64,000 bases of DNA from Comamonadaceae bacterium (GTDB lineage: Bacteria; Pseudomonadota; Gammaproteobacteria; Burkholderiales; Burkholderiaceae_C): NCBI GenBank assembly GCA_027485235.1, contig JAIXRJ010000036.1, positions 62,001 through 126,000 of the forward strand. Direction: 5' to 3'. Numbering within the stretch: the first letter of the stretch is position 1; every line of letters begins with the position of its first letter. The notes under the pieces are model-generated. The model worked only from the letters and a program-made list of their open reading frames with translations. It was not told the DNA's origin and did not search any database. The translations under genes and the position numbers were made by a program. Positions 2,910 to 56,000 of the stretch are shown piece by piece.

Positions 2910-2910
2910 T

Positions 2911-7554: not shown

Positions 7555-7576
7555 GTTCGTGCCTCGCGATGACGGC

Positions 7577-7771: not shown

Positions 7772-7847
7772 CTTCGCACGCATTCATCAAGCTGATCTCT
7801 AAGCGCTCGCCATTGCGAGCGGAGAGGGGCAGTTCAGGTATGGCGGG

Positions 7848-7890
7848 AATGGATCCCGGGTCTGGCCCGGGATGGCAGGTGGCGGATGGA
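7848..7890. repeat. palindromic repeat, copy 3 (intergenic)
   Basis: The arms TCCCGGG (7854-7860) and CCCGGGA (7866-7872) flank TCTGG, followed by TGGCAGGTGGCGGAT. That flank matches the one next to the copy inside the aminotransferase. Nothing else is recognisable between 7772 and 7954 apart from the presumed promoter of the CapD-like gene. Confidence 0.75.
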
Positions 7891-7954
7891 TCGCCACATC
7901 GTTTCGTTCTGCACAGTATTTTTTAAACGGTGACTGAGTCGCCGAACTTCCCTA

Positions 7955-9907: not shown

Positions 9908-9973
9908 CCCGCCAGCCAGCCGTCACAAACGCAACAGGGCCTGCGGGCCTGCTTGCCATGAATTGGCTTTGCC

Positions 9974-27526: not shown

Positions 27527-27602
27527 GCCGGTCATTGTAGGTGGGACCTTCACGTCTTGGAGGGAGAATGCCGGTGCTTCGCGCACGGCCTGGAATGCAG
27601 AG

Positions 27603-32045: not shown

Positions 32046-32083
32046 GGAAAGACCGAGTTGGGGCAAAAAGGAAAGACGAACCG

Positions 32084-40723: not shown

Positions 40724-40742
40724 TCGGGCTTGGCCTCTGATG

Positions 40743-40783
40743 CCGTCTGGGGCAGCTTCGGTTGCCCCAGACGGTTTTTTTTT
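40743..40783 (+). terminator. Rho-independent terminator after the giant gene
   Basis: A perfect 12-base-pair stem, CCGTCTGGGGCA (40743-40754) with TGCCCCAGACGG (40763-40774), closes an eight-base loop. It is followed by nine T residues. It lies 20 bases after the stop and insulates the next operon. Confidence 0.97.
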
Positions 40784-40861: not shown

Positions 40862-42592
40862 ATGATGGGGCACAAGCCGCACACGGCACTGGGGGCAACA
40901 GGAGAGGGCTGGTGGGTCGAAGCCCTGCAGCACCACGCCCGCCATCAAGCCGATCGCGTGGCGCTGATTGTTCTGCAGGATGGCGTGCAGGAGTCGGATC
41001 GGCTCAGCTATGCGCAGTTGGATCTGCAGCTCAGGAGCATGGCCGCGCATTTGCAGGGTCTGGGCTTGCAGGGTCAGCGGCTCTTGGTGGCACAGCCCTC
41101 GGGGCTGGCATTTGTCACGGTGTTTTTGGCGTGTTTGTACGCGGGTGTCATCCCCGTGTGTGTGCCCGACCCGAGCAAGGGCCGTTGGTCGGAGCAGGTG
41201 CTGGCCATCGCCGCCGACTGTCAGGCCAGCGCCATCGCCGCGCCCGCCGATTGGCCGGCTTTGGCTTTGCCCCGGGTGGACACCGTGCCCAGTTCGGTGG
41301 CATTGGCCGCCCAGTGGCTTGCGCCCGCAGTGACGGGCGAAACCCTGGCTTATGTGCAGTACACCTCTGGCTCGACCTCGGCGCCCAAAGGGGTCATGGT
41401 GACGTTTGGCAACTTGCTGGCCAACCAGCGCATGATTGCTGAGGCGCAACAGTTGGGCCCCGACGAGGTGTCGCTCAACTGGCTGCCCACCTACCATGAC
41501 ATGGGGCTGGTGGGCGGTTTGTTGCAGCCTTTGTGGATCGGCGCCACCTTGGTGATGATGCCGCCCCTGCACATGCTGGCCCGCCCTGCGCGCTGGTTGC
41601 AGGCCATCCACCGTTACCGGGTGACGGCGACGGGTGGCCCCAATTTTGCCTACCAGACCTGTGTGGACCGCATCCGTGATGAGCAAATGGCGGGGCTGGA
41701 TTTGTCCTGTTGGCGCTTGGCCTTTGTGGGTGCCGAGCCGGTCAAGATGGCCACCTTGCAAGCCTTTTCAGACAAGTTTGCGAGCGCAGGCTTCAAGGCG
41801 CAGGCTTTCTACCCCTGTTACGGCATGGCGGAGCTGGTCTTGTTTGCCAGTGGCCCGGTGGCTGGAGAGGGGGCCCAAGAGCGCAGCTTGACCGTGGACG
41901 GCAAGCCCCGTGTGGCCACGTCTTGTGGCCGTGTTTGGGGGGCATCGCGTTTGCTGATCGTCGATCCCATCAGCGCTTGCCCCGTGGCAGCGGGTCAATC
42001 CGGTGAGATCTGGATTGCGGGCGAGCATGTGGCCTCAGGCTATTGGGGCCAAGCCGACTTGAGCCGTGAACGGTTTCAGGCGCGTGTGCAGGGTGGGGAT
42101 TCGACCCCCTTTTTGCGCACGCGGGATGCCGGTGTGTGGCTGGACGGTGCGCTGCATGTGCTGGGCCGTTTGGACGATGTGGTGGTGGTGCGCGGCGTGA
42201 ACCACCATGCCGAGGATCTGGAGTCGAGGGTGCAGGCGCTGGACCCGGGCATTGTCTTGGTGGTGGTGTTTTCGGTGGACCGAATAGACCCAATAGAACC
42301 AATAGACCTGATGGGCCCAATAGACCCGACGGGCCCCGGTCACTGGGTGGTGGCCCTTGAAATGCGGCATGCCCAGGAAGCCCGCCAGGATCTGAAAGTA
42401 CAGGTGTCGGCGCTGATGACCCAAGAGGCCGGCATACGACCGGATAATGTGCTGCTGTTGCGGCCGGGGACGGTTTACAAAACCTCCAGCGGTAAACCGC
42501 GTCGCCGTGTGTGTGCACAGGCGTATGCCCTGGGCCAATGGCCCGAGGCGTCTTCGCTCTGGGCTGAAAATGAGCATGAAGGGATTGCATGA
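40862..42592 (+). CDS. fatty acyl-AMP ligase (FAAL)-like adenylating enzyme
   Basis: A 576-residue ANL-superfamily enzyme. The AMP-binding core has YVQYTSGSTSAPKGVMVTFG, then LNWLPTYHDMGLVGGLLQPL and ATGGPNFAYQTCVDRI. Next come FYPCYGMAELVLF and the C-terminal YKTSSGKPRR catalytic lysine region. HDMGLVGGLLQPL and GPNFAY are typical of FAAL, which activates fatty acids as acyl-AMP and loads them on an ACP instead of CoA. A likely acceptor is the ACP at 43835. Residues 474-492 form an inserted Pro/Ile/Asp repeat encoded by six 9-base units. ATG 40862 (or 40865) was chosen as it matches the family N-terminus and lies past the terminator. Confidence 0.9.
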   Translation: MMGHKPHTALGATGEGWWVEALQHHARHQADRVALIVLQDGVQESDRLSYAQLDLQLRSMAAHLQGLGLQGQRLLVAQPSGLAFVTVFLACLYAGVIPVCVPDPSKGRWSEQVLAIAADCQASAIAAPADWPALALPRVDTVPSSVALAAQWLAPAVTGETLAYVQYTSGSTSAPKGVMVTFGNLLANQRMIAEAQQLGPDEVSLNWLPTYHDMGLVGGLLQPLWIGATLVMMPPLHMLARPARWLQAIHRYRVTATGGPNFAYQTCVDRIRDEQMAGLDLSCWRLAFVGAEPVKMATLQAFSDKFASAGFKAQAFYPCYGMAELVLFASGPVAGEGAQERSLTVDGKPRVATSCGRVWGASRLLIVDPISACPVAAGQSGEIWIAGEHVASGYWGQADLSRERFQARVQGGDSTPFLRTRDAGVWLDGALHVLGRLDDVVVVRGVNHHAEDLESRVQALDPGIVLVVVFSVDRIDPIEPIDLMGPIDPTGPGHWVVALEMRHAQEARQDLKVQVSALMTQEAGIRPDNVLLLRPGTVYKTSSGKPRRRVCAQAYALGQWPEASSLWAENEHEGIA

Positions 42593-43848
42593 TGGATAGG
42601 AACCAAAGGTCTCAGGGCTTAGACCCCGCGCCAGACAATGCCGTGGAAGACGGGCAGTTGTTTGACCCCTACGACATGCACTGGATGACCGATCCTTACC
42701 CTGTGTACGCGCAATTGCAGCGCATCGGGCCAGTGATCTGGTCGTCCCGGGCCAAAGCCTGGCTGGTCACAGGCCATGCGCAGGTGCGAGAGGCTTTGCG
42801 CGACAAATCAATATGGCCCAACGATTTGGCCGAATTTATTCAGGCCCTGTCGGACAGGGCGAACAAGCCCTTGCCCCATTTGGTCAGTGCGCTGAAGTCC
42901 ATTTTGTTTTTTCAACATGGCGCAGGCCATGCCGAGGGACGTCGCATGCTGGTGCAGGTGATCAATGGCCGTTCCCTGGATGACTTGGTGCCCGACATGC
43001 ACGCGGTGGCCCAAGACCTGTTGGGCCCTGTCCGCAACGCGGGCCGCATGGATGTGGTGCACGAGTTTTCTGACTTGATGCCGCATTTGGTGATGGGGCG
43101 GTGGTTGGGGGTCGGGGCTGAGGATGTGCGCCTGATGGCCCGCTCCATCACCGGCTTCATGGTGGTGTTCAACCGGGGTTGCCCGATGCGGGAGTTGGAG
43201 CATTACAACGAACGTTTGGGGGTTTGCCTGAAGGTTCTGGAACGGGTGATTCAAGAGCGCCGTCCAACGCTGACCGACGATGGCATCAGCCGCCTCATCC
43301 AGTTGGGCGATGCTGACGGGCTGGACGACGCCGAATTGGCCGCGCGTTGTTTGTTCCAGTTTTTGGCGGGCAGTGAAACCTCGGCCACGTTCACCGCGCA
43401 TGCCGTTCGTTTGTTGTTGTCGCATCCCGAGGAGCTGGCCAAGCTGCGCTCGGGTCAAGTGACGATGGCGCAAGCGGTGGATGAATTGCTGCGCTTTGAA
43501 AGCCCGGTCCAGCAGACGGTTCGTTATGCCAGCGAAGACCGGGTGCTGGGGGACCAGCAGATCCGGGCCGGTGATCAGATGATCTTGATGATTTCGGCGG
43601 CCAACCGGGACCCGCGGGTCTTTGCCGCGCCCGAGCGTTTGCAGTTGGACCGCGAGGCGGGCGCCCACCTGGCTTTTGCGGCGGGCACACACCATTGCAT
43701 TGGTGAGCGTCTGGCGCGCTTGGAGGCCGGCGTGGCCTTGGCCCATTTTCTCGAGTTGCCAGAGATGCAGCTGGCGGCGGATCAGCCGGGCTGCTGGTCG
43801 GCGCATGTGATGCGACGTTTGAAAGGGTTGAACATTGAGCGCGTTTGA
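42589..43848 (+). CDS. cytochrome P450
   Basis: A 419-residue bacterial P450. The I-helix oxygen-activating motif is AGSETSATF and the K-helix ExxR is ELLRFESPVQQTVR. The heme loop is FAAGTHHCIGERLARLE with Cys370 as axial ligand. No signal or membrane anchor is present, so it is a soluble class I enzyme that needs an external ferredoxin and reductase; none is encoded here. ATG 42589 overlaps the FAAL stop. Lying between an acyl ligase and an ACP, it probably hydroxylates or otherwise oxidises an ACP-bound acyl chain; that is inference. Confidence 0.93.
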   Translation: MMDRNQRSQGLDPAPDNAVEDGQLFDPYDMHWMTDPYPVYAQLQRIGPVIWSSRAKAWLVTGHAQVREALRDKSIWPNDLAEFIQALSDRANKPLPHLVSALKSILFFQHGAGHAEGRRMLVQVINGRSLDDLVPDMHAVAQDLLGPVRNAGRMDVVHEFSDLMPHLVMGRWLGVGAEDVRLMARSITGFMVVFNRGCPMRELEHYNERLGVCLKVLERVIQERRPTLTDDGISRLIQLGDADGLDDAELAARCLFQFLAGSETSATFTAHAVRLLLSHPEELAKLRSGQVTMAQAVDELLRFESPVQQTVRYASEDRVLGDQQIRAGDQMILMISAANRDPRVFAAPERLQLDREAGAHLAFAAGTHHCIGERLARLEAGVALAHFLELPEMQLAADQPGCWSAHVMRRLKGLNIERV

Positions 43849-44131
43849 ACACCGTCGGCCTGAAGGGGCCGCAAGCCTGTCGGAGGCCCAGCTTTTGAAA
43901 TGGTTCCATGACTTCTTGTGCCAACGCTTGGGCACGCCGCCCGAGGGCTATTCGCAGGAGACGCCTTTTTCATCGATGGGTCTCGACTCCATGGACGCCG
44001 TCATCATGGCGGGGCACCTGGAGGAGGCCATGGGCCGAACCGTGGACCCGGAAATCTTTTTGACACGCCGTTGCCTGGGCGAGGTGATGGACACTTTGCA
44101 GCAACGTGGTTTTCTGGTTCGGGGCGTTTGA
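43835..44131 (+). CDS. acyl carrier protein
   Basis: A 98-residue carrier protein with the modification site Ser52 in GLDSMDAV. An extra ~14-residue N-terminal extension precedes the four-helix core. It overlaps the P450 gene by 14 bases and the next gene by 1 base (TGATG), so it is part of a tightly packed operon. It is the expected acceptor of the FAAL product and the platform for the P450. Confidence 0.9.
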   Translation: MSAFEHRRPEGAASLSEAQLLKWFHDFLCQRLGTPPEGYSQETPFSSMGLDSMDAVIMAGHLEEAMGRTVDPEIFLTRRCLGEVMDTLQQRGFLVRGV

Positions 44132-45123
44132 TGGCCAAGAAGCTTGTCTTGCCGGGTTTGCGGCCAATGGAGGCTGTGGACTCGCAGTCGCCAGCCCAGC
44201 GCCTTGAACTGGGCTTGGCCTTGAGTGCGGCGGGCCTGCTCAGCGCGGCGCAAAAGGTGTTGCAGGCCCTGGTGGACCACGCTGAATGTCGCGAGGCGGC
44301 CAGACGTGAATTGCTGATCATCGATTACACCCAGAGCAGTGGTTTGCTGGAGGAGATAGCGCCCCTGTGTACGGAGCACCGGGCGCAAGAAAAATTGCTG
44401 GACAGTTTGCGCCTCGAGCCAACGCCTGACACCCGATGGTTGGCTGTGGATGCCCTGGTTTGGAAAAAGGGCGGGCATGGGCGGACCTTGTTTTTCTTCA
44501 CGGGCACGGCACGGCGCAATTTGCCCCGCATGGCCATGTTGCAACGCAGTTTCAAGGGCTTGGGGTGCAACATTGTCTATGTCCGGGACCATCAGAAGCT
44601 GTGGCACATGGCGGGCTTGTCGGGCATGCCCTCCAAAAATCCGCATGACATGAGCCGGGAGTTGTTGGCCCTGCACACAGTCTTGGGCGGTGGCGATGTG
44701 CTCACGGCGGGCTCGTCGGTGGGCGCCTATGCGGCTTTGCGTTTTGGACTGCACCTGAAAGCCAAAGGGGTGTTGGGCTTCAGTGCCTTCACCGACATTG
44801 CTTTGACCCCACAACAACTGGTGGACTACCCGGCGCTGCAGGGTTTGTACGACCATGACCCGACGCTGGCAGAGGACCTGCTGCCCTTGTATGCCCAAGC
44901 CGCACAGGCCGCACAGGCCCCCCATGTGGAACTTTGTTATGGTGCGGCCCACGAAAGGGATGCGCGGCATGCCACGCATCTGTCGGGGCTGCCCAGGGTC
45001 CGGCTGCACCCGGTGGCAGACCTGGCGGAACACGATACCGTCAAGTATTTTCAGGGCGCTGGCCAGTTGCCAGCGCTGATGTCGCAATTTGTTCAATCCG
45101 CTTGTTCATCCGTCCAGGTTTGA
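44131..45123 (+). CDS. alpha/beta-hydrolase-like protein, unassigned
   Basis: A 330-residue protein. Residues ~15-85 are helical (RLELGLALSAAGLLSAAQKV) and may be a TPR-like cap. The remainder has an alpha/beta-hydrolase layout with a nucleophile elbow GSSVGAYAALRF. A late Asp/His pair is plausible (HPVADLAEHDTVKYF). ATG 44131 overlaps the ACP stop. It could be an acyl-ACP thioesterase or acyltransferase releasing the product. I do not recognise a named family. Confidence 0.65.
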   Translation: MAKKLVLPGLRPMEAVDSQSPAQRLELGLALSAAGLLSAAQKVLQALVDHAECREAARRELLIIDYTQSSGLLEEIAPLCTEHRAQEKLLDSLRLEPTPDTRWLAVDALVWKKGGHGRTLFFFTGTARRNLPRMAMLQRSFKGLGCNIVYVRDHQKLWHMAGLSGMPSKNPHDMSRELLALHTVLGGGDVLTAGSSVGAYAALRFGLHLKAKGVLGFSAFTDIALTPQQLVDYPALQGLYDHDPTLAEDLLPLYAQAAQAAQAPHVELCYGAAHERDARHATHLSGLPRVRLHPVADLAEHDTVKYFQGAGQLPALMSQFVQSACSSVQV

Positions 45124-45148
45124 GCTGGTTTTTACCCAGGAGTTTTTT

Positions 45149-46060
45149 GTGTCCGACACCCTCACAACCCCCGCCGATGTCAGCTTCAAATCGGGGCTCA
45201 TGGCCTTGAGCCCGAGTCTGAAAATCCATGTCCGTGCCCATGAGCCGCAAGGCTTCACCAAGACGGTGCTGTGCATGCATGGCGCCATTGGCTCCAGCGC
45301 AGATTTTGATGTGTTGGCACGCTCCCTGGCCGCCAAGGGCTGTCGGGTACTGGCTTACGACCGGCCGGGCATTGGTTACACCCTGTTGACCGAGGATTAC
45401 CTCCAAAGGGGCTATGTCATCAACCTGGCCATCCTGCATGCCTTCATGAAGTCTGCCGGGGGGGTGGACACGGTGGTCTGCTCTTCGGGGGGCGCGTCTT
45501 ATTTGCATGCATACCTGACCCGAAAAGACGGCGAAGCAGGTTTGGCCCCGGCCCGCGTGGTGTATTGCGAGCCTGGTTTTGAGATGAACAGCGAGATCAA
45601 GAAATCCTTGAGCCTGCGGGTCGCGTTCGCAGGCTCGCGTTTTTCGAGTTTTGAGCAGGCCAAGACCGCATGGCTGGAAAGCGGTTGGGACCGCGTCGCG
45701 TTTGGCAGTGAAACCCAGCGCGATGAATTCCTGAAGCACTGGCTGTTCCAAATCGGTGATGAATGGATCCCAGCGGTGGACCGCCGACTGATGCAAGCCT
45801 GGCTGAAAACCGGCGAAGAGGGCCAGGGCGTGGATGCCTTGCGGATGCCCGCTTCGTTCCAGGGTCAGGTGCTGTACCTTTATTCGGCCGACCGGCTGGC
45901 CTACCACATGGACCGCATGGCCGAGTTCAAACGGTCCTACCCCCAAGTGGCGCTGTGCGAAATCGAGGGCAGCGCCCACCCGCTGTCGTTGACGACCGAG
46001 CGGGAGTTGTCGGCGGTGACGGACTTCATCGTGGGTGACGGCCCTGGGGCCCAGGGCTGA
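45149..46060 (+). CDS. alpha/beta-fold hydrolase
   Basis: A 303-residue hydrolase with the oxyanion segment CMHGAIGSSADFDVL. The nucleophile elbow VVCSSGGASYL has Cys in place of the usual first Gly. A C-terminal catalytic His occurs in IEGSAHPLSLTTERE. Start choice: AGGAG at 45138-45142 stands six bases before GTG 45149, which is better than an upstream TTG overlapping the previous gene. It may act as a thioesterase, esterase or amide-forming acyltransferase in the FAAL/ACP pathway. Confidence 0.78.
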   Translation: MSDTLTTPADVSFKSGLMALSPSLKIHVRAHEPQGFTKTVLCMHGAIGSSADFDVLARSLAAKGCRVLAYDRPGIGYTLLTEDYLQRGYVINLAILHAFMKSAGGVDTVVCSSGGASYLHAYLTRKDGEAGLAPARVVYCEPGFEMNSEIKKSLSLRVAFAGSRFSSFEQAKTAWLESGWDRVAFGSETQRDEFLKHWLFQIGDEWIPAVDRRLMQAWLKTGEEGQGVDALRMPASFQGQVLYLYSADRLAYHMDRMAEFKRSYPQVALCEIEGSAHPLSLTTERELSAVTDFIVGDGPGAQG

Positions 46061-46123
46061 CATGGAACGCCTCGGGACAACACACCCAGCAACGAGACAA
46101 CAGACAGAATTTGGAGAGTGAGA

Positions 46124-47887
46124 ATGGCGACATGGCCCAAGCCCAAAGCGCTTCAACCCAGAACGACCAAGCCGAAAGCGGGCAAGCCGGTGGCCCGGCC
46201 GTCCAAGGCCTTGCCCACCCTGTCGCCGGTGGAAGCCCATGCGGCAAACCGCGAGCGGTTTGAAGCCGAACTGAAAAAGGGCCCACCCAATGCGCGTGCC
46301 TGGTTGGCTTTGGCGCAAATGGCCCTGAACCATGGCGATTCCCCGCAAGCCCGACGGGCGGCCTTGACCGCGTTCGCGCAAAGCACGGCGCCTGACGAGT
46401 GTTTGGCCATTGGTCGGTTTTTGTCACAGGTGGGCGAGTACAAAAAAGCCATTGAGGCCTCACTCCGGGGTTATGAGCAATTGGGCCGGCCGGTCGAAAA
46501 AGCCGCTGCCGTGTTGACGGTGGCCCTGGCGGTGGCCGATTGGGCCTTGGTGGATCGCTTGATTGCCCAAATCAGCGCTGTCTATGCAACAGGGGAGATA
46601 GGCCGCGTGATCGAGGGGCCTCGCACCCATTTGTTGTGGTGTGCCGACGAGGCCATCAACATGAAGGTCATTGCCCAGCACATCCGCAGGCAGTACCCGC
46701 CGGTGGCGAACCCCAAGCCCTTTGACTTGCCCCCCTTGGCCGGCAGGCGCTTGCGTGTGGGTTATTTGTCGAGTGATTACCGAGAACATGCAACCGCTTG
46801 GCTGATCAATGGCTTGTTTCGCAACCACGACCTGACGCGTGTGGAGATGTTTGCCTACTGCTGCGGCTGGGATGACCAGTCGGAGGTGCGTCGTCAGGTG
46901 CTCAGCAGGTTTGAACATGTGTGTTCGGTCAGTCACCTGTCGGATCTGCAGGCGGCAGAAAAAATCCGCGCCGATCGGATTGACATTCTGGTGGATTTGA
47001 ATGGGCCAACCCGAGGCAATCGCTTGGGGATATTGGCGCAAAGGGCCGCGCCCGTTCAAATTTCTTATTTGGGTTTCCCTGGCACCGCAGGCGGCGGGCA
47101 TGTGGATTACATCGTGGCCGATGACTATGTGTTGCCAAGTGGCGTTGAGGCGCTTTACCCCGAAAAGGTCATACGGCTGACCAAAACTTACCAGATCAAC
47201 GATTACGCGCAACGCGAAAACGCCGTCCAATACACGCGCAGCCAGGTGGGCTTGCCTGAAGACAAGCTGGTCTTGGGGGTCTTCAATGCGGGCAACAAAA
47301 TCCGCTCTGAGGTGTGGGATGTGTGGATGCGCATTTTGAAAAAAGTGCCCAATGCGGTGATTTGGTTGCTCGACCCGGGTGATGTGGCGCGTGACAACAT
47401 TGCGAAATACACCCACCGGGCGGGCGTCGACCACAAGCGGATCATGGTGGCGCCTCGGATGAAGCAGAACACCCATTTGTCGCGTTTGTCTTGCTGCGAT
47501 TTGATGCTGGACGCCTGGCCCTATGGCGGCCACACCACCACGGCGGATGCCTTGTTCAGTGGGGTGCCTGTGGTGACGCTGGAGGGCAGCAACTTCGCCT
47601 CAAGGGTCAGCGGCGGCTTGTTGCGGGCTGCGGGCCTTGATCTGCTGGTCCAGCCAGACACCGATGCCTATGTGAACTTTGCGGTGAAGCTGTTGCAGAC
47701 GCCGGGTGAAATTGGAAAAATGAAGCAATTCATCAAAGACCATATCCGCAAGCAAAACGTGTTCAATGCGCCCATGAAGACGCGGCAGCTGGAAGACGCT
47801 TACGTGGTGGTGGCGGAACGCGCTGAGCAGCATTTGAAGCCCAAAAACATCCGTTTCGAGACCCAGCCTGCCCCCCAGGGACGCTGA
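46124..47887 (+). CDS. SPINDLY/OGT-type (GT41) glycosyltransferase
   Basis: A 587-residue protein. A basic N-terminus and short TPR-like helices (about 40-170) precede a GT-B catalytic domain. The GT41 motifs are LRVGYLSSDYREHATAWLIN, then DILVDLNGPTRGNRLGILAQ and RAAPVQISYLGFPGTAGG. VDYIVADDYVLP, DAWPYGGHTTTADALFSGVP and VVTLEGSNFASRVSGGLL follow. GT41 enzymes add GlcNAc or fucose to Ser/Thr of proteins. GGAG at 46113-46116 favours ATG 46124 over GTG 46118. The acceptor might be the giant secreted protein or an operon product; the sequence does not decide. Confidence 0.9.
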   Translation: MATWPKPKALQPRTTKPKAGKPVARPSKALPTLSPVEAHAANRERFEAELKKGPPNARAWLALAQMALNHGDSPQARRAALTAFAQSTAPDECLAIGRFLSQVGEYKKAIEASLRGYEQLGRPVEKAAAVLTVALAVADWALVDRLIAQISAVYATGEIGRVIEGPRTHLLWCADEAINMKVIAQHIRRQYPPVANPKPFDLPPLAGRRLRVGYLSSDYREHATAWLINGLFRNHDLTRVEMFAYCCGWDDQSEVRRQVLSRFEHVCSVSHLSDLQAAEKIRADRIDILVDLNGPTRGNRLGILAQRAAPVQISYLGFPGTAGGGHVDYIVADDYVLPSGVEALYPEKVIRLTKTYQINDYAQRENAVQYTRSQVGLPEDKLVLGVFNAGNKIRSEVWDVWMRILKKVPNAVIWLLDPGDVARDNIAKYTHRAGVDHKRIMVAPRMKQNTHLSRLSCCDLMLDAWPYGGHTTTADALFSGVPVVTLEGSNFASRVSGGLLRAAGLDLLVQPDTDAYVNFAVKLLQTPGEIGKMKQFIKDHIRKQNVFNAPMKTRQLEDAYVVVAERAEQHLKPKNIRFETQPAPQGR

Positions 47888-47901
47888 TGTTTCAAGGGTC
47901 C

Positions 47902-47937
47902 GGTGTGGCACCCTGTGTGGCACCCGGTGTGACACCC
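47902..47937. repeat. 12-bp triple tandem repeat between convergent genes
   Basis: Three 12-base units follow each other: GGTGTGGCACCC, TGTGTGGCACCC and GGTGTGACACCC. The units are near-palindromic, so the stretch can fold into a hairpin from either strand. It might act as a weak bidirectional terminator between the GT41 gene and the convergent ATP-grasp gene. Confidence 0.6.
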
Positions 47938-47955
47938 GGTGCCGCCAATCCCAGC

Positions 47956-49842
47956 TCAGTTTTTGGCCGCTTGTGCCCTCAAAAACGCGGTGACTGCTGG
48001 CGCCCAGGAGAAGGGGTGTGTAGCGGATGTTGCGGGCGTTAATTCATGCCGGTGACAACGGGGGTCTTCGCGGAACAAACGCAACACCTCAGGGCGGGTT
48101 TGAGGGTCTGTGATGACACAGTCCACATGATCGACCGGCAGCCCTGCGCTTGGCCAGTTCAGGTCCGGGCAGGCCACCACCACGGCTTCAACGCGGCGGT
48201 CGAGCAACAGCGCCTCGAGGGCTGCAGGGCTTGTGGGCTGACAGGCCTGTGTGCACTCGCTGCCCACAAACACGCCGTCGGGGGCCACCAGGCCGATCTG
48301 CAGATCGGCCGCTTGCAAGTGGGCCTGAATGCCCAGGCCCGACAGACCCCTCAGGCCTTCCAGCAGGACACACACGATGGGTATCCGGCCTTGCTGCAGC
48401 ACCAAGGTGTCCATCACTTGGCCTGCGCATTCGGGGCGGGTGCTGGCAAATTGGGGCTGTCCGTTGATCTCGCAAATGGCCCCGCCGACTTCACGCCATG
48501 AGCGCGTGATGTCGGGCATGATCAGGTCGACCCCAGCGATTTGCAGTTTAAAAATACGGGCGGCTTGCACGGCGAGTGCGACATTGTCGGGGTGGATGTG
48601 ATCGGTGCAGTCGGTGGGCCGACCGCCCAGAGAAATGTTGGCGGCTCGGCGCAAAGCGACAAACAGGCCCTGGGCCACCACGCGGTTCGGGTCAAGACCT
48701 TGTGCGCGCAGCAATTCGTGCGCCTCTTCGTTCAGGGTGATGGGTGACATTTGGGCCCAAGGCTGGGTGCCGCGGCGCGGGTCCAGGTTTTCTTGCGCCA
48801 CCAATTCAAGCACCGTTGAAACGCCATTGCCCCAGACGCCAGCGGGTTCTCGGCAGGTGACCCAACCCAGGCGTCCATAGAGGATGCCGATGCGATAGTC
48901 TTTGCCCTCGATGTGTTTTTCAAGGATCAAAGAACGGCTGAGCGCCGACGCCCTTGTGAAGGCTTGGCCCAAACTGGCTTCGTCCTGGAGGCCGGCACTC
49001 ACGCCTGCGCCGCCATCCATGTCGGCCGGTTTGAGCACCACCGGATAGCCGATGTCGGCCGCTGCCTGGCGTGCCGTGGCCCAGTCTGGGGCGGGTTTTT
49101 GGGCCGGCACAGGCAAACCCACACGTTGCATCAAAGCGTGGGCCATGGATTTGTTGCGGGCCAAAGCGGCCGCCATGGCGGAATCCAACTCGGTGAAGGT
49201 GCTGTTCATCCAGCGATGCCGCACGCCCCAGCCGTATTGAAAGATGGTGTGGGATATGCGGATGACGGGGATGTTGCGGTCGTAAGCGGCCTGCAGCAAC
49301 AGGCGCGTGTTGGTCCCGGTGGGCGCGGCTTGGCCGAGTCTGTGGAGCACGGTCTGAATCGGCGTTGATGGGGCTTCGCGTACCACCGAGGGGTGCCACC
49401 CGCCGAGGGTGTCCAACACCCAGGGCAAGACCTTGTCAAGCAGCCGGGGCTCGAAGGCCGCAAAAGCCAGCAGTGCCCGGCGTTGGGGCTCCGATGTGCC
49501 AGGCTCGGGGTGGTCCGTCCAAGCCACCACCACGCCCCCGCCGCTGAGCGGCCAACCGGCTGACAACTGGAGCCGAACCAACAAGGTGTTCAAGGGCTCC
49601 AGCGCCTGCAGGCAGTCGCTGCTGTCTTGCGGGTTCATGGCCGCAAAAGCAGGGCCTGGACGCAAGCGGTAACGCGCCGGCATGGGGGCCAATTGACGCG
49701 ACACTTCAGGCGGCATTTCGGGGCTGGCGTCGGTTGCCTCGCAGGGCAGCAAGGCACACACAAGTTGTATGCAAGGCTGCTTCAGGCCATGGCGGTACCC
49801 CGCCAAGACGCTTGATTTCAGAACGGCTGCGCGATGGGGCAT
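47956..49842 (-). CDS. cyanophycin-synthetase-like ATP-grasp protein with degenerate Mur domain
   Basis: A 628-residue paralogue of the next gene. A CphA-like N-terminal domain is followed by an ATP-grasp domain (about 220-480). Visible motifs are GYPVVLKPADMDGGAGVSAG, ILEKHIEGKDYRIGILYGRL, GVDLIMPDITRSWREVGGAI and CEINGQPQF. After RIPIV near residue 486 the protein still aligns by eye with a Mur-ligase N-terminal part (VAPDGVFVGSECTQ, then VEAVVVACPDLNWPSAGLP). It has lost the GTNGKST P-loop and everything after the first Mur domain. It should keep ligase or amidation activity in the ATP-grasp half, or serve as a partner of the complete enzyme. Eight bases or more separate it from the upstream gene; both are read from the minus strand. 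Confidence 0.82.
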   Translation of the reverse strand: MPHRAAVLKSSVLAGYRHGLKQPCIQLVCALLPCEATDASPEMPPEVSRQLAPMPARYRLRPGPAFAAMNPQDSSDCLQALEPLNTLLVRLQLSAGWPLSGGGVVVAWTDHPEPGTSEPQRRALLAFAAFEPRLLDKVLPWVLDTLGGWHPSVVREAPSTPIQTVLHRLGQAAPTGTNTRLLLQAAYDRNIPVIRISHTIFQYGWGVRHRWMNSTFTELDSAMAAALARNKSMAHALMQRVGLPVPAQKPAPDWATARQAAADIGYPVVLKPADMDGGAGVSAGLQDEASLGQAFTRASALSRSLILEKHIEGKDYRIGILYGRLGWVTCREPAGVWGNGVSTVLELVAQENLDPRRGTQPWAQMSPITLNEEAHELLRAQGLDPNRVVAQGLFVALRRAANISLGGRPTDCTDHIHPDNVALAVQAARIFKLQIAGVDLIMPDITRSWREVGGAICEINGQPQFASTRPECAGQVMDTLVLQQGRIPIVCVLLEGLRGLSGLGIQAHLQAADLQIGLVAPDGVFVGSECTQACQPTSPAALEALLLDRRVEAVVVACPDLNWPSAGLPVDHVDCVITDPQTRPEVLRLFREDPRCHRHELTPATSATHPFSWAPAVTAFLRAQAAKN

Positions 49843-49895
49843 GCGGGTGGCGTCGTCAAACAGGCTGCGTTGGTCGGGGCTGGTTCAGACCCGCT

Positions 49896-52577
49896 TCACG
49901 GTCCTTGCAGTTTGGGCAGGGCAAACCAGGGTTCGGCCAAGATCACCAGAAAGTCACCGGGACGCGCGGTGGACAAGGCCATTTGAAATGCTTTGTGGGG
50001 ATTTTCTTCACAAACAATGTGTTGGGCCGCGACCCCCATGGCCAGCAAGGCTTCTTGTGAAGCCCTGAGCATGGTTTGGGCAGGATGAGGGCCCGCATAG
50101 TCGGGTGCGTTGTGAACATATTTCAGATCGCACCCCATGACAAAGCGGTCAAAGGTTTGGGACAGGAGCGGCGCACTGGCGGTGAGGTGGGACCGGTGTC
50201 GGTTGCCCAACTTCAAGTTCAGCAAATGCCTTTGTCCTGTGACGACTTGCTGTTGCACCACCGCGCACAGCGCTTGCACAGCGCTGGGGTTGTGGCCGTA
50301 GTCCAGCATCACTTGGAATGGAAAGCCGGTCAGGAAGTTGTAGCGCCCGGGGTTGTTCTGAACCGAATTTTCAAACGTGCTCAAGGCACGCCGAATGACT
50401 GGGGGCGGGATGCCGTGCGCCCATGCCAATGCTGCAGCAAACAGGGCATTGGTTTCATTGAATTTCAGCAGCCCTTGCATGGTCGCAGGAATGTCTGACA
50501 GCGGCATCAGCCAGCGGGCTTGGGTGCCACTGGCCATGACGATCCCGGCGGTGCCCTCCTTGTTCATGACAAAGACGCCATCGCCGCCCGCGAGCAGGTG
50601 TTGGCTCATGGCCCGCTGTTGCGCATCACGCCCCACCAAAATGTGCCGCTTGGCGCCCGCCAGCGGCAGCACGCCCAGGCACAGGGGGTCCTCTGCATTG
50701 ACCACCACGGCGTGCTTGGCACGTTTCAAAACTTCGGCTTTGAGCACCGCCATGTGCTCGAGGGTGTTGACCCCTTCAACCCCGATGTGGTCGTCCTGGA
50801 CGTTGAGCAAAGCCGCCACATCGTAGTGATCGCAGGGGTGGCCGAAACGGATCAAACCTTTTCTGGGCAGTTCCAGCACCGCGGCTTGAACCGATGAGTC
50901 CTGCAGCAGCATGAGCGCCCCTGGCAATCCCGAGAGGTTGTCATGGTGGATCAGCTCTTGACCCACCCAGGTGCCTTGGGTGGTGCAGACCCCCGCGGTT
51001 GTGCCATGGGCCGTCCACACATGGTGGAGCATTCGGGCCACGGTGCTTTTTCCGTTGGTGCCGGTGATGGCCGTGGTCGGGATGCGTGGGGTCTTGTTCT
51101 GGAAAAGCCCATCGAGCACCTCGCCATTGAGGTCGCGATCGGGTTGGGCCAACCAGTGAACCCGAAAACCCGGTTGCGCATTGACCTCGCAGATGGCGCC
51201 ACCGACCAGTCGCCAACTTTGGGTGATGTCTGGGCAAAGAAAATCAACGCCCGCAATGTCCAGCCCCAGCATCCTTGCCGCACGGATGGCCAGGCTGCGG
51301 TTGTCCGGGTGGATGACGGAAGTCACATCATCGGCAGTGCCCCCCGTGCTGATGTTGGCCGTTCGCCTGAGCGGCACAAATTGGCCTGTCGCGGGCACGC
51401 TGTGAGGCTGCAGGCCTTGTGAAGTGAGGCGCTCTGTGGCCTCGGCGTCCAGTTCGATCCGGATCAACAGGCTGCGCTTGCCTGAGCCTCGGCGTGGGTC
51501 CGCATTGAGTTGCGCCAGCAGTTCGGTCACCGTTTGCACCCCATCGCCCCAGACGCCACCCGGCGTGCGGCGAGTAGCGGCCATCAATTGGCCCCCCACC
51601 ACCAGCAGGCGGTGGTCATTGCCCGCGATGTGCTTTTCGACGATCACGGATTGGGGGCTGAAGCCGTTGGCTTTGCGAAACGAATCGAGCAGCAGATCTT
51701 TGCTTGCAATGCCAGCGGTCACCCCGTGGCCCTGATCTTGGTTGCTGGGCTTGACGGCCACCGGCCAGCCTATTTTTTCAGCCCATTGCAAGGCTTGTGC
51801 TTCATTGGCCGCGATGCCGCCTTGGGGGACGGGCAGCAGGGCTTGCGCCAGCAGTTGTTTGGTTTGGACTTTGTTGCGAGCGATGCGTGTGGCCAGCGTG
51901 CTGGTGTGACCGGTGAAGCTGCTGTCCAGTCGCTGGGCCTGACAGCCCCATCCCAGTTGTACAAAGCTTGGCATCAAGGTGACGGGGATGTTCCGGGCCC
52001 ATGCTGCCGTGACAAAACGCAGCGTGTTGGGCGGGAAGCCGCCATTTTGGGCAGACAGCAGCCAGCGGTCCAGGTTCTGCCGCCAGGTGAGCACCTCTGG
52101 GTCTTCAGCGCCCCCGAGGTGCATGGACAGCCACTGGACAGCAAAAGCCAAGCTGTCGCGCAGGATGTGCTCGCGAACCCAGGGCAGGGCCAAGGTGAGC
52201 TTTTGCCCGCTGCATGCGATCACCCGGGCTTGGTCAACCGGCTCATAAGCCAGTTTTTGCAGCCACACCACCAGGCCAGCCAGACAATGCGCGACCGTGA
52301 GGTGTTCAGCCTTGACGGTCTTGGCGATGAAATCGTGTGCGCTGCCTGCTTTGCAGTTGGGGTCTTCGTCCAGTGGAGGCAGCCCCGCAGCGGCTGCGGT
52401 CAAGGGCGCGACGGGGATGGCTGTCCAGGTGTGCGGGCCCTCCAGTGAAAACGTGGCCCGGGCTGTTTTTTCGGAAAGATCGGCGTGGCTGCCGAGGTGG
52501 AAAATCAGATCCGTCAGCTGGATGCGGTGAACAGCCTCCGTGTGCACCTTGTCGTTTTGAGTATTTTTAGCGTCCAT
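49896..52577 (-). CDS. cyanophycin-synthetase-like ligase (ATP-grasp plus Mur ligase)
   Basis: An 893-residue protein of CphA length. The N-terminal domain (1-210) is followed by ATP-grasp (about 215-480: GWPVAVKPSNQDQGHGVTAG, VEKHIAGNDHRLLVVGGQ, GVDFLCPDITQSWRLVGGAI, EVNAQPGF). A Mur-ligase half has the P-loop TAITGTNGKSTVARML near 500 and the C-terminal LDYGHNPSAVQAL near 757. Known CphA alternates Asp and Arg addition to build cyanophycin. Here there is no cyanophycinase, and two degenerate paralogues flank it beside a FAAL/ACP operon. I read it as a peptide or amide ligase of that pathway, though a genuine cyanophycin synthetase remains possible. ATG 52577 faces a divergent paralogue. Confidence 0.85.
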   Translation of the reverse strand: MDAKNTQNDKVHTEAVHRIQLTDLIFHLGSHADLSEKTARATFSLEGPHTWTAIPVAPLTAAAAGLPPLDEDPNCKAGSAHDFIAKTVKAEHLTVAHCLAGLVVWLQKLAYEPVDQARVIACSGQKLTLALPWVREHILRDSLAFAVQWLSMHLGGAEDPEVLTWRQNLDRWLLSAQNGGFPPNTLRFVTAAWARNIPVTLMPSFVQLGWGCQAQRLDSSFTGHTSTLATRIARNKVQTKQLLAQALLPVPQGGIAANEAQALQWAEKIGWPVAVKPSNQDQGHGVTAGIASKDLLLDSFRKANGFSPQSVIVEKHIAGNDHRLLVVGGQLMAATRRTPGGVWGDGVQTVTELLAQLNADPRRGSGKRSLLIRIELDAEATERLTSQGLQPHSVPATGQFVPLRRTANISTGGTADDVTSVIHPDNRSLAIRAARMLGLDIAGVDFLCPDITQSWRLVGGAICEVNAQPGFRVHWLAQPDRDLNGEVLDGLFQNKTPRIPTTAITGTNGKSTVARMLHHVWTAHGTTAGVCTTQGTWVGQELIHHDNLSGLPGALMLLQDSSVQAAVLELPRKGLIRFGHPCDHYDVAALLNVQDDHIGVEGVNTLEHMAVLKAEVLKRAKHAVVVNAEDPLCLGVLPLAGAKRHILVGRDAQQRAMSQHLLAGGDGVFVMNKEGTAGIVMASGTQARWLMPLSDIPATMQGLLKFNETNALFAAALAWAHGIPPPVIRRALSTFENSVQNNPGRYNFLTGFPFQVMLDYGHNPSAVQALCAVVQQQVVTGQRHLLNLKLGNRHRSHLTASAPLLSQTFDRFVMGCDLKYVHNAPDYAGPHPAQTMLRASQEALLAMGVAAQHIVCEENPHKAFQMALSTARPGDFLVILAEPWFALPKLQGP

Positions 52578-52589
52578 GATGCATTTTTG

Positions 52590-52603
52590 TCAATTTTAAT
52601 TGA
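52590..52603. promoter_or_regulatory. palindrome in the divergent promoter of two CphA-like genes
   Basis: TCAATT and AATTGA form a perfect 6-base inverted repeat with a two-base spacer. It lies 12 bases upstream of the minus-strand ATG 52577 and 69 bases before the plus-strand ATG 52673. The region is AT-rich compared with the genes. It could bind a dimeric repressor, but no regulator gene is nearby. Confidence 0.4.
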
Positions 52604-52672
52604 TCATTGCGCTCGGTCAGTTCAGGCCAAAAAGACGGGGCCATCGCCCGTTTTCAGCAAGCAAGGTTCCCC

Positions 52673-54466
52673 ATGGTTGGTTTGCATCAGCGTGCGTTGT
52701 TTCACGGACCGAGTCCACTTTCACGGGAGCCGGTGTTGGTGGTCGAGTTGACGCTCGGACCGGTGCCAGAGGACCAACTGCGTGCGGCATGGGCGGTGTT
52801 GCGCTTGGAGTGCCTTGATTGGCACCCACGGGCACAGGACGGGATGGCGGTGGCCCATGCGCAAGCACTGGGCCAATGCTTGGCCCTTTGGTCACACCAG
52901 GCCCTGACTTTCGTGAGGGGGTTTTTGGCCCCAGCCACGTGTGTGGGGATGGCCGATCCAGCGCGTGCCTTCATCTGCTTGCCCTACCACGACCCCGCAC
53001 TGAGTTGGCGGGTGTTGCTGCTGGGGACCGATTGGCTCAACGCGATCATTCGGCAAGAAAACACCGAGGCGTTCCCCGATGCGCTCGCCGACTTGTGGCA
53101 ACACTGCCGGCGGCTGCATCCGGACTACCAAGCCTGCATCGTGATGGAGGCTGCAAAACATCGCGGCATTCCGGTGGCGCCGGCCTGGGGAGCGAACCGC
53201 CATTGGCGATACGGACAAGGTCAACGCAGTCGTGTCTTGTGGGAGTCGAGCTCGGGTGACGATGGCTATTTGGGGGGGCGGGTTGCCGAGTCGAAGCTCC
53301 AGACCAAACATGCGCTGCGTTCATTGGGTTTGCCGACCCCTGCGTTCCAGCACGTCATGGCGGCGGACCAGTTGCCGGAGGCCTTGGCGCAAGTGGGTTT
53401 CCCATGTGTCATCAAGCCCATCGATCAAGGCGCGGGCAGGGGGGTGAGTGCGGGCTTGAAGGACCTGGATGCGGTGCGCCGAGCCTTTGAGCTGGCCCGA
53501 AACTTCAGTGCAGGGCCCATTTTGTTGGAAGCCCATGTGCCGGGGGACGATCACCGACTGATGGTGGTTGACGGGCGTTTGGTGGCCGCGATTCGCCGTG
53601 AACCACCCAGGGTGGTGGGCGATGGCGTGAGCAGCATTGGGGCACTGGTGGCGGCTCTAAATACCCACCGCGATGAGCGCAGCCTGACCCACAGTGGCTT
53701 CAAACGCCCGATTCGGCTGGATGCCGGTGCCTTGGCGCATTTGTCTGCGCAGGGCATGACGCCCGATACCGTCCCCGTCGCCGGCCAAGTGGTTCAAGTG
53801 CGCAGCAATGCCAACCTCTCCACAGGCGGTCAGTGCACCGATGTCACAGCCCAGGTGCATCCCGAAATTCGCAGCATGGCCGAGGCCATCGCCCAAACAC
53901 TGCAGATCCAGATGTTGGGTGCAGACTACCTGAGCACCGACATCAGCAGCAGCCCCAGGCAGACGGCAGGCCAATTCATCGAGATCAACACCACCCCCGG
54001 CTTGGACGCGGTGATTGCTGCAGCTTGGTCTGTGCGCGATGCCGGTGACTTGGCCTTGGGTCCCCAGATCGGACGCATTGCGACGCGCCTGCTGATCGTG
54101 GATGACGCGCACCGAGAGCCCACGCAAGCCGTGCTCAGTGCCCAGGCTTGGCAGGCCGGTCAGGGGTGGGCCAGTTTCCATGAGGCAGGCTTGTCAGGGA
54201 TGCAACTGGGGGTCGAGCCGCAAAAGGCGTGGTCTGGGGTTCAGACTTTGTTGGGGCACCGAGGCCTGTCAAGCGCGGTGATCCTGGCCACGGTCCGTGA
54301 AATTCAAGCGCATGGTTTGCCTTTGGATGTGAGCGATGTGGCGCATGTGTCGGGCACGCTTTTGCCGGTTTGGCAGGACGTGGTCAATGCCTGTTGTCGC
54401 ACTGTGGTGCGGCATGACCCCCTTTGGCTGGATGCCAAGGGTCTGCAGGCGATGGTGACGTGTTGA
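52673..54466 (+). CDS. cyanophycin-synthetase-like ATP-grasp protein with degenerate C-terminal domain
   Basis: A 597-residue paralogue of the two minus-strand genes. ATP-grasp motifs are FPCVIKPIDQGAGRGVSAGL, LLEAHVPGDDHRLMVVDGRL, AAIRREPPRVVGDGVSSIGA, GADYLSTDI and FIEINTTPGLDAV. After about residue 460 the C-terminal part (RIATRLLIVDDAHREPTQAV) occupies the place of a Mur domain but has no P-loop. The start is uncertain: ATG 52673 was chosen; TTG 52607 in the same frame would add 22 residues. It likely performs one ATP-dependent ligation in the same pathway. Confidence 0.8.
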   Translation: MVGLHQRALFHGPSPLSREPVLVVELTLGPVPEDQLRAAWAVLRLECLDWHPRAQDGMAVAHAQALGQCLALWSHQALTFVRGFLAPATCVGMADPARAFICLPYHDPALSWRVLLLGTDWLNAIIRQENTEAFPDALADLWQHCRRLHPDYQACIVMEAAKHRGIPVAPAWGANRHWRYGQGQRSRVLWESSSGDDGYLGGRVAESKLQTKHALRSLGLPTPAFQHVMAADQLPEALAQVGFPCVIKPIDQGAGRGVSAGLKDLDAVRRAFELARNFSAGPILLEAHVPGDDHRLMVVDGRLVAAIRREPPRVVGDGVSSIGALVAALNTHRDERSLTHSGFKRPIRLDAGALAHLSAQGMTPDTVPVAGQVVQVRSNANLSTGGQCTDVTAQVHPEIRSMAEAIAQTLQIQMLGADYLSTDISSSPRQTAGQFIEINTTPGLDAVIAAAWSVRDAGDLALGPQIGRIATRLLIVDDAHREPTQAVLSAQAWQAGQGWASFHEAGLSGMQLGVEPQKAWSGVQTLLGHRGLSSAVILATVREIQAHGLPLDVSDVAHVSGTLLPVWQDVVNACCRTVVRHDPLWLDAKGLQAMVTC

Positions 54467-54503: not shown

Positions 54504-56000
54504 TCATTGAAAAGCCACTTCGGCAAAGCTGCGCAGCTTGCGGCTGTGCAGCTGGGCCGGGCCTGCGGCGCGCAGCAAGGTCAGTGCCCGGATGCCGATT
54601 TGCAAATGCTGGTTCACCCGTTCGCGGTAAAAGTGGTTGGCCATGCCGGGCAGCTTGATCTCGCCGTGCAGCGGCTTGTCGCTCACGCACAGCAGCGTGC
54701 CGTAGGGCACCCGAAAGCGAAAACCATTGGCCGCGATGGTGGCGCTTTCCATGTCCAGCGCCACGGCGCGGCTTTGGCTGAAGCGGCGCTGCGGGGTGTT
54801 GTCGGGCAGCAGCTCCCAGTTGCGGTTGTCGGTGCTGGCCACGGTGCCGGTGCGCATCAGGCGTTTGAGCTCCGGCCCTTCGCAGCCCGTGATTTCAGAC
54901 ACGGCTTTTTCCAGCGCCAGCTGGATCTCGGCCAGTGCCGGAATCGGCACCCACAGGGGCAATTCTTCGTCCAGCACATGGTCTTCGCGCACATAAGCAT
55001 GGGCCAGCACATAGTCGCCCAGCTGTTGGGTGGTGCGCAGGCCCGCACAGTGGCCCAGCATCAGCCAAGCGTGCGGACGCAGCACCGCGATGTGGTCGGT
55101 GATGGTCTTGGCATTGGCCGGGCCCACCCCGATGTTGACCATGGTGATGCCGCTGTGACCCTCGCGCACCAAGTGGTAGGCGGGCATTTGTGGCAAACGC
55201 GGCGGGGCGGCGCCCAGCGCATCGTCTGCCTGTGCAGGCACCCCCACGCGCCGCGTGACCACATTGCCCGGCTCGACAAAAGCCCCATAGGGGCTGTCCG
55301 CCTTGGCCATCTCGGCACGGCCCAGCGCGATGAATTCGTCGATGTAGAACTGGTAATTGGTGAACAGCACGTAGTTCTGAAAATGCGATGGGCTGTTGCC
55401 GCAGTAGTGGCGCAGACGGTGCAGCGAATAGTCGGTGCGCGGCGCGGTGAACAGCGACAGCGGTTGGGGCTGGCCCGGCGCAGCTGCATAGGTGCCATTG
55501 GCAATGCCATCGTCCATGGCCGTCAGGTCGGGCAGGTCAAACACATCGCGCAGGCGGGCACGGCGTGCGGCGCTCATCTCGCCCTCCATGTGCTCGTTCT
55601 CTGCGAATGAAAAATGCACCGGCATCGGGTCTTTGCTGGTGCCCACTTCGAGGCGCACACCGTGGTTGCGGATCAGCAGGTCAAATTGCGCCAACAGGTA
55701 GGGTCCAAACAGGTCTGGGCGGGTGAGGCTCGAAGCATAGAGTCCGGCGCTGGCTACAAAACCGTAACTCAAGGGCTCGTGGTCCGCGTCGTGTGCAGAT
55801 GCCCAGTCGGTCGTGGTCTCGATGCGCACATAGGGGTAACAAGCACGCACCCGGTCTTGCAAGTCGCCGCCGGCGACAAAACGCTGCATGGCCTGACGCA
55901 AATGCCAAACACTTTGGTCGTAAATGGCTTGCACGCGGGCCAAAGCGGCTTGGGCGGTGTCGAAAACTTCGGGGGCGATGAAGGGGGTGGGGGTTTGCAT
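54504..56000 (-). CDS. amn: AMP nucleosidase
   Basis: A 498-residue protein close to the E. coli Amn length (484). The N-terminal Amn-specific domain (YPYVRIETTTDWASAHDADH, then LSYGFVASAGLYASSLTRPD) precedes the PNP/UDP-phosphorylase-like catalytic domain. The latter has ITMVNIGVGPANAKTITDHI, WLMLGHCAGLRTTQQLGDYV and LDMESATIAANGFRFRVPYG. It hydrolyses AMP to adenine and ribose-5-phosphate. It converges with the upstream ATP-grasp gene; a small GCGCA/TGCGC hairpin lies in the 37-base gap. Confidence 0.96.
   Translation of the reverse strand: MQTPTPFIAPEVFDTAQAALARVQAIYDQSVWHLRQAMQRFVAGGDLQDRVRACYPYVRIETTTDWASAHDADHEPLSYGFVASAGLYASSLTRPDLFGPYLLAQFDLLIRNHGVRLEVGTSKDPMPVHFSFAENEHMEGEMSAARRARLRDVFDLPDLTAMDDGIANGTYAAAPGQPQPLSLFTAPRTDYSLHRLRHYCGNSPSHFQNYVLFTNYQFYIDEFIALGRAEMAKADSPYGAFVEPGNVVTRRVGVPAQADDALGAAPPRLPQMPAYHLVREGHSGITMVNIGVGPANAKTITDHIAVLRPHAWLMLGHCAGLRTTQQLGDYVLAHAYVREDHVLDEELPLWVPIPALAEIQLALEKAVSEITGCEGPELKRLMRTGTVASTDNRNWELLPDNTPQRRFSQSRAVALDMESATIAANGFRFRVPYGTLLCVSDKPLHGEIKLPGMANHFYRERVNQHLQIGIRALTLLRAAGPAQLHSRKLRSFAEVAFQ

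Follow-up and report, generated by a model that had tools for sequence, protein, structure and literature searches.

The 64,000-nucleotide window analyzed here (bases 62001-126000 of contig C17 in a 3.19-Mb Comamonadaceae genome assembly of 50 contigs) contains a single 26.9-kb stretch, enclosed by gshB (26579-27586) and amn (54504-56000), that holds all genes of a cassette: a glycosyltransferase, an HlyD-type protein, a type I permease/ATPase, a TolC-like protein, a 2407-residue protein, a unit beginning with a fatty acyl-AMP ligase (FAAL), a GT41 glycosyltransferase, and three ligases resembling cyanophycin synthetase (CphA). We tentatively propose that this cassette builds an acyl-amino-acid group without a nonribosomal peptide synthetase (NRPS), most likely placed on the cell surface. 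A preliminary description of the same DNA had delimited a locus from 40862 to 54466; its end was right, but the parent stretch begins near 27587, and the exporter and giant protein, absent from that description, are added here. The genes it had listed, encoding FAAL, a cytochrome P450, an acyl carrier protein (ACP), two hydrolases, GT41, and three CphA-like ligases, are all present. The features are as follows.

26579-27586, minus strand: gshB, core flank (GSH-S_ATP, 243 bits; start codon uncertain; 89-92% identity in four relatives)
27660-28625, minus strand: glycosyltransferase (Glycos_transf_1, 34.3 bits, above cut-off)
28666-29859, minus strand: HlyD-type membrane fusion protein (HlyD_3, 68.6 bits)
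29856-32087, minus strand: type I secretion permease/ATPase of the LssB type (TIGR03375, 721.6 bits; cut-off 693.1)
32084-33337, minus strand: TolC-like outer membrane protein (OEP, 122 bits)
33500-40723, plus strand: 2407-residue acidic repeat protein (61-residue tandem units)
40742-40775, plus strand: hairpin resembling a terminator, separating the giant gene from the FAAL unit (stem of 15 pairs followed by a T run)
40862-42592, plus strand: FAAL, ATG start (AMP-binding, 219.8 bits)
42589-43848, plus strand: cytochrome P450 (PF00067, 94.4 bits; heme motif FAAGTHHCIG)
43835-44131, plus strand: ACP (PF00550, 41.5 bits; motif GLDSM)
44131-45123, plus strand: alpha/beta hydrolase 1, HYD1, a proposed thioesterase or acyltransferase (GSSVG; family alignment)
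about 45149-46060, plus strand: alpha/beta hydrolase 2, HYD2 (Abhydrolase_6, 43.6 bits)
46124-47887, plus strand: GT41 glycosyltransferase, OGT type (PF13844, 242 bits)
47956-49842, minus strand: CPHB, 628-residue CphA-like ATP-grasp ligase without Mur P-loop (domain scans, alignment, residue table, tree)
49896-52577, minus strand: CPHA, 893-residue divergent protein similar to cyanophycin synthetase, combining an ATP-grasp half and a Mur-ligase half (domain scans, alignment, residue table)
52673-54466 from the likelier ATG, plus strand: CPHC, CphA-like ligase of the ATP-grasp type lacking the Mur P-loop, 619 residues from a TTG at 52607 (domain scans, alignment, residue table, tree)
54504-56000, minus strand: amn, AMP nucleosidase, core flank (Pfam scan; 84-89% identity in five relatives fetched)

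The cassette genes share one insertion site. The amn gene was sought in 12 genomes of the same genus, nine of which were positive (E<=1e-50), and five of these nine neighborhoods were fetched. In four of the five (G521, G540, G087, and G189), gshB adjoins amn and the site is empty; the fifth (G535) has no gshB match within the 20 kb read around amn. The gap between the two genes is 0.97-1.0 kb in G521, G540, and G087, where a YegS/DAGK-type gene was called in it (the family was tested in G521); in G189 the aligned genes are about 0.1 kb apart. The YegS/DAGK-type lipid kinase gene of G521 (locus L102 6145-7062) is unmatched in the window and lacks a counterpart between the two flanking genes in G189. 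Past gshB, the gene order of G521 is collinear with the window to about 14,940. On the far side of amn, the G521 genes have no match in the window, so further rearrangement may have occurred.

Downstream of the giant gene lies a packed plus-strand unit with overlapping gene ends, as the preliminary description had recognized. FAAL and P450 overlap by 4 bases, P450 and ACP by 14, and ACP and HYD1 by 1, with HYD2 following after 25 bases and GT41 after 63. The first protein is nearer to FAALs than to CoA ligases (NCBIfam PRK05850 fatty-acid--AMP ligase, 320.5 bits, vs. PRK06187 CoA ligase, 122), although it scores under the curated cut-offs of the named FAAL models (PRK05850, 320.5 for 775; PRK09192, 277.3 for 600). 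Among solved chains its top match is 7r7f (388 bits), listed as a polyketide synthase and presumably a FAAL, followed by the named FAALs 3pbk and 8hd4 (214-226 bits) and by feruloyl-CoA synthetase at 74. A search of the source genome with this FAAL gave one match at E<=1e-40. The best solved match of the P450 is, by a narrow lead, the biotin-pathway P450 3ejb (157.3 bits vs. 155.8 and 155.4 for the next two), which we take to be BioI, acting on an ACP-bound acyl chain. Among the matches listed in genomes of the genus were P450 fragments of 97-172 residues at 40-44% identity, and a search of genome contigs with the P450 returned two distant actinobacterial matches. Searches of plasmids reached at most 33.0% identity for the P450 and 39.7% for the FAAL among the 25 matches listed of 1267 and 1203 records, respectively. 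HYD1 has no Pfam or NCBIfam match, and a structure prediction for it was discarded (mean pLDDT 34.5). HYD2 has a weak match to a gamma-lactamase (28.6 bits) and, in a search over 83 loci, was present in the source genome's own loci only.

All three CphA-like proteins are ATP-grasp ligases, as previously described, but the Mur-ligase half is kept only in the 893-residue CPHA; CPHB and CPHC consist of the ATP-grasp part and a C-terminal part without P-loop. The likely start of CPHC is 95 bases from that of CPHA. Like CphA1 (solved structures 7lgm, 7lgn, 7wac, and 7lg5), CPHA has ATP-grasp and Mur domains, keeps six tabulated residues, Arg309, Arg323, Asn394, Ser396, Gly456, and Arg458 (TeCphA1 numbering; positions as assigned in the available text of PMC9427784), and retains the Mur P-loop TGTNGKST; Glu215 and His267 are changed. 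It differs from CphA1 in lying below both curated cut-offs (TIGR02068, 613.9 for 850; NF010623, 638.4 for 877) and in lacking the N-domain HxxEH primer-making site, with HCLAGL at the position of TeCphA1 HVIEHV. A Cx19HxxEH site is reported for 83% of nr70 CphA1s (PMC9262961, available part). Glu215 is also absent from CPHB, CPHC, and the ordinary CphA on contig C43 of the source genome, which is changed at His267 as well. The idea that loss of His267 or Glu215 marks a changed enzyme was rejected, since ordinary family members of the CphA1 type deviate at these positions too.

Arg309, Arg323, and Asn394 are present in all three ligases. In CphA1, Arg458 holds the alpha-carboxylate of the incoming Asp (PMC9427784, as far as its text is available). 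This residue is present in CPHA and in seven of seven CphA1 rows of the residue table. It is replaced by Ala in CPHB and by Asp in CPHC, and is lost in five other members of the CPHB clade (Gly or Phe) and two others of the CPHC clade (Asp, Gln). As CphA2 has Tyr at this position, a free amino acid may still be a substrate of CPHB and CPHC despite the loss. These two proteins resemble CphA2 in length and layout (N-terminal part, ATP-grasp, and Mur remnant without P-loop), the Mur remnant aligning in CPHB and being hardly recognizable in CPHC, and the N-terminal part aligning in CPHC and hardly in CPHB. The solved chains 8fxh and probably 7ta5, listed under other names, are presumably CphA2. 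In the available texts, CphA2 is a specialized cyanobacterial enzyme (PMC9262961) without P-loop and Mur lid (PMC9427784). A tree of 43 rows places CPHB together with five relatives (support 100/97) and CPHC, in a clade apart, together with two (100/99); the CPHB clade has Gln for Gly456. Many branches of this tree are long and drew a program warning; CphA2 is on a long branch whose position is unresolved. A structure prediction of CPHC with its two window paralogues was discarded (mean pLDDT 36.8). These two clades are the most distinctive part of the locus, and their defined residue changes make them directly assayable.

With CPHC as query, 224 of 250 genomes of the family match, nearly all through CphA relatives; among the matches listed, only a protein of G123 (E 1.8e-92) and a second copy of the source genome on C43 (2.3e-77) stand clear of the remainder (1.2e-55 or weaker). 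In 210 genomes of the class, CPHC-type proteins were found in the source genome only, the five others above threshold having frames of 763-946 residues. With CPHB as query, seven of 200 family genomes pass 1e-90. Members of the CPHB clade come from the source genome, G082, G186, and G123 (three copies); the matches of G083 and G195 cluster with CphA1-type rows, and that of G051, a frame of 1110 residues, was not placed. G123 carries both CPHB- and CPHC-type ligases. The CPHC-type ligase on C43 (615 residues; locus L046 11729-15430) is immediately preceded by an integrase-core (rve) gene, and a gene for an FkbM-type methyltransferase lies downstream. In two genera, the gene that follows a CPHB-type ligase overlaps it and encodes a class I methyltransferase domain (L098 924-3664 and L049 9840-12703, the Pfam score of the latter being equal to the cut-off).

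Contig C43 also carries an ordinary cyanophycin cluster (locus L108 674-8397). Its CphA scores 1228.6 bits for NF010623 (cut-off 877) and 968.6 for TIGR02068, a second CphA-type gene scores 898.2 (cut-off 877), and an associated ABC transporter and a DUF1854 protein are above their cut-offs. Because of this separate cluster, the triad of the cassette is not simply an ordinary cyanophycin system, a possibility that the preliminary description had left as a way to overturn its proposal. That the triad is instead a second system for a cyanophycin-like storage polymer, composed of a CphA1-like and two CphA2-like enzymes with the FAAL operon as an unrelated neighbor, is quite improbable. The layout of CPHB and CPHC would suit it, as would the ATP-grasp residues of CPHA, most of those tabulated being kept along with the Mur P-loop. 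Against it stand the C43 cluster itself, the scores of CPHA below both family cut-offs and its missing HxxEH site, the absence of the alpha-carboxylate Arg from CPHB and CPHC, and the fact that no cyanophycinase was recognized among the window proteins scanned, which are part of all those of the window.

On the other side of the FAAL unit, the permease/ATPase above its TIGR03375 cut-off, together with its HlyD and TolC (OEP) partners, belongs to LssB-type type I secretion. Ala, Asp, Thr, Leu, and Ser abound in the 2407-residue protein, which contains one Cys and has five similar units of 61 residues at residues 191-495; it matched no Pfam family. From its position, it is probably the substrate of the exporter. 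The giant gene is followed by a hairpin and a T run; therefore, the FAAL unit is probably transcribed separately from it. Terminator-like sites in the region as a whole are not above the number in shuffles (17 vs. 15.7, sd 3.9).

Against solved chains, the GT41 protein scores 215 bits to XcOGT, about 207 to human OGT, 158 to SPINDLY, and 32-36 to HMW1C-type enzymes; it falls far short of the HMW1C-type N-glycosyltransferase cut-off (NF049992, 45.5 bits vs. 1000). A GT41 near a large, probably secreted protein recalls the glycosylation of adhesins by HMW1C-type enzymes. Such a modification of the giant protein was nevertheless rejected, as the GT41 is OGT-like and sequons are not in excess. In two genomes of one genus, a GT41 gene lies near a CPHB-type ligase gene with an acetyl-CoA-synthetase-like gene between them (L048 690-5824 and L049 6344-11804). 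This GT41-CPHB neighborhood is real but stems from a single genus. A link of FAAL to the neighborhoods of this type in G186 and G082 was rejected: their AMP-ligase is 23% identical to FAAL, and that of G186 has the N-terminus of an acetyl-CoA synthetase.

The genomic context of HYD1 relatives gives a further view of the acyl half. A five-row HYD1 profile matched 27 of 329 genomes of the phylum at 1e-3, seven of them, source genome counted, at 1e-10 or better. We read 15 HYD1-type places outside the source genome and set aside four weaker ones (G239, G076, G384, and G264), which showed no partners except a match at the level of ABC ATPases in G076. Genes at fetched loci were called with a simple codon-usage script, and some are miscalled. 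In Azospirillum sp. TSH100, a CphA/GshB-like ATP-grasp gene, an ACP gene, and a HYD1 relative stand in a row; HlyD and ABC exporter genes lie directly beyond the hydrolase row, a glycosyltransferase gene is near, and a large RTX-repeat protein is encoded in the stretch. Azospirillum lipoferum 4B likewise has a CphA/GshB-type ATP-grasp gene, an ACP gene, and a hydrolase gene in a row. In G687, an ACP and a hydrolase occur with a YheC-like gene. Other relatives have a surface-related setting: GT41 and a sulfotransferase beside the hydrolase in G434, HlyD- and ABC-like genes plus a GT61 in G680, Kdo and capsule genes in Novosphingobium, and pseudaminic acid genes in Tritonibacter and Marinovum, both found with the Azospirillum hydrolase as query. 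Surface-sugar or sulfotransferase genes thus adjoin the hydrolase at these five of the 15 places (raw count). The FAAL matches of G805, G687, and G691 do not adjoin the HYD1-type genes read there, and the two of G434 are on separate short contigs. In G665 (locus L084 8531-11031), a HYD1-type hydrolase with an N-terminal extension is directly followed by a gene that, by eye, looks like a radical-SAM gene and has no Pfam match.

From these data we infer the product of the cassette and the coupling of its parts. FAAL would load a fatty acid on the ACP, and the P450 would oxidize the ACP-bound chain, perhaps to a second carboxylate as BioI does; the BioI step yields a dicarboxylic product, which would suit a CphA-type enzyme. 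HYD1, HYD2, or both might release or transfer the acyl chain. The CphA-derived ATP-grasp enzymes would then turn a carboxylate into an acyl phosphate for coupling to amines, CphA-type enzymes being described as activating the terminal carboxylate (PMC9427784, available part). CPHA could add a side-chain residue with its Mur half. CPHB and CPHC have lost the Arg by which an incoming amino acid is held at its alpha-carboxylate, so they may accept a different amine or serve as cappers. The group would probably end up on the giant protein or on a glycan of the surface, and GT41 would glycosylate the protein. Attachment at the surface is preferred because part of the HYD1 family is found in a surface-sugar and exporter setting. 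The preliminary description had proposed an oxidized acyl group joined to amino acids without an NRPS. This is supported in part, by the common insertion, the narrow best match of the P450 to 3ejb, and the Azospirillum pairing, but ligases and ACP-hydrolase pairs also occur apart in some relatives. The fully specified version is unlikely. In it, an oxidized fatty-acyl group would be built on a dedicated ACP, linked to amino acids by cyanophycin synthetases put to new use, and transferred to the giant type I-secreted surface protein or to its O-glycan. Under that same unlikely version, CPHB and CPHC would represent two novel families of ligases, keeping the ATP-grasp chemistry of cyanophycin synthesis but differing in the amine accepted. 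If the cassette functions as a unit, it combines the oxidation of fatty acids by FAAL, ACP, and P450 with ligases of the cyanophycin type and with the export of a giant protein by a type I system, and cyanophycin synthetases would be reused for tailoring instead of storage.

Several observations weigh against a single surface-directed pathway. No second genome with the whole gene set was found. HYD1 itself, source genome counted, matched three of 250 family genomes and four of 274 class genomes at 1e-3, the others being weak (best 5e-8), and the Azospirillum hydrolase matched three of 119 genomes in the family of G687. The HYD1 neighbor counts are raw and lack a chance control, and seven of the 15 places (G665, G805, G860, three in G691, and the second in G687) have no relative of ACP, GT41, FAAL, P450, or ligase. 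No exporter match was found in the 20 kb read in A. lipoferum 4B. A P450 orthologue was not found in 90 genomes of the genus, 76 of which have some P450 match: among the matches listed, no other full-length protein exceeds 35% identity, and the best identity in 229 phylum genomes is 31%. The P450 also scores 165 bits for a cyclodipeptide-associated family, far below its cut-off of 500, and the giant protein carries about as many N-glycosylation sequons as chance would give (17 vs. 16.2, sd 3.5). FAAL unit and ligases are on different strands or units, the cassette being broken up by one terminator and three strand switches. Its two edges have no 11-base word in common, and no integrase or transposase was recognized among the cassette proteins scanned. 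The GC content is graded (exporter 0.566, giant gene 0.590, FAAL to GT41 0.609, ligases 0.623, flanks 0.627 and 0.635), which fits assembly from parts; therefore, these parts may differ in age or source. The independent occurrence of the two halves in relatives, which the preliminary description had accepted as a refutation, is partly borne out. No FAAL match at E<=1e-40 was found in G123, G082, or G186, which have CPHB- or CPHC-type ligases, a CPHC relative lies apart from FAAL on C43, and around the ACP-hydrolase pair of G687 the 20 kb read contain no match to CphA-like proteins. Its expected linkage in other genera extends to the two Azospirillum strains that pair ATP-grasp, ACP, and HYD1 relative, but neither to a whole set nor to a P450 orthologue.

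Many of these points are what would be expected if functions without a common product (an adhesin secreted by the type I route, a small lipid pathway built on FAAL plus a GT41, and CphA-like ligases) had accumulated at one insertion hotspot. The graded GC, the several transcription units, the ligases without FAAL in three genomes, the G687 pair, and the seven places with none of the partners sought all speak for such unrelated neighbors. The single common insertion site, the ATP-grasp gene with ACP and a HYD1 relative in Azospirillum, and the HYD1 relative beside GT41 in G434 speak against them. We therefore place the surface-directed pathway level with unrelated neighbors, each a possibility that falls short of an even chance, and both above a free product. 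The latter, an oxidized lipo-amino acid or short lipopeptide that would leave the cell as a small molecule, was the model of the preliminary description and now appears rather unlikely. It agrees with the FAAL-ACP-P450-hydrolase order, with the narrow best match of the P450 to 3ejb, and with the NRPS-free peptides by ATP-grasp ligases, ACPs, and transacylases predicted in PMC2922099 (available part). It accounts poorly for a type I exporter of the LssB family next to the gene of a giant protein and for the several HYD1 relatives in surface-sugar clusters, and no dedicated small-molecule exporter was recognized among the 14 cassette proteins scanned.

Known systems share parts of this organization. 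An AMP-forming acyl ligase with two hydrolases is a feature of the exosortase A-associated set. Here, however, FAAL scores 81.6 for TIGR03098 (cut-off 592), and neither hydrolase matches NCBIfam at 1e-3. Alkyne and polyyne cassettes (jamABC plus thioesterase) combine FAAL and ACP with a releasing enzyme, and ten actinobacterial genomes are described as having a P450 in place of the thioesterase and rubredoxin genes (PMC8406139, available part); they differ from the present cassette, in which no desaturase family was found among the 14 proteins scanned. A related published logic is the prediction, in the accessible text of PMC2922099, of NRPS-free peptides made by ATP-grasp ligases, ACPs, and alpha/beta-hydrolase transacylases. 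The enzyme classes and general logic are the same, but the operons described there are centered on methionyl-tRNA-synthetase or cupin-oxygenase genes, neither of which was recognized in the cassette. Within a limited open-access literature consisting of titles and the beginnings of abstracts, no publication was found that describes FAAL-ACP-P450 fatty-acid oxidation together with ligases of the cyanophycin type and a giant protein secreted by a type I system. Elsewhere in the window, positions 452-11491 form a surface-glycan region with acyl genes, encoding KASIII-like, SDR, and hexapeptide/PglD-like transferase proteins, a Rieske oxygenase, a DegT aminotransferase, a polysaccharide-biosynthesis dehydratase, and Wzi.

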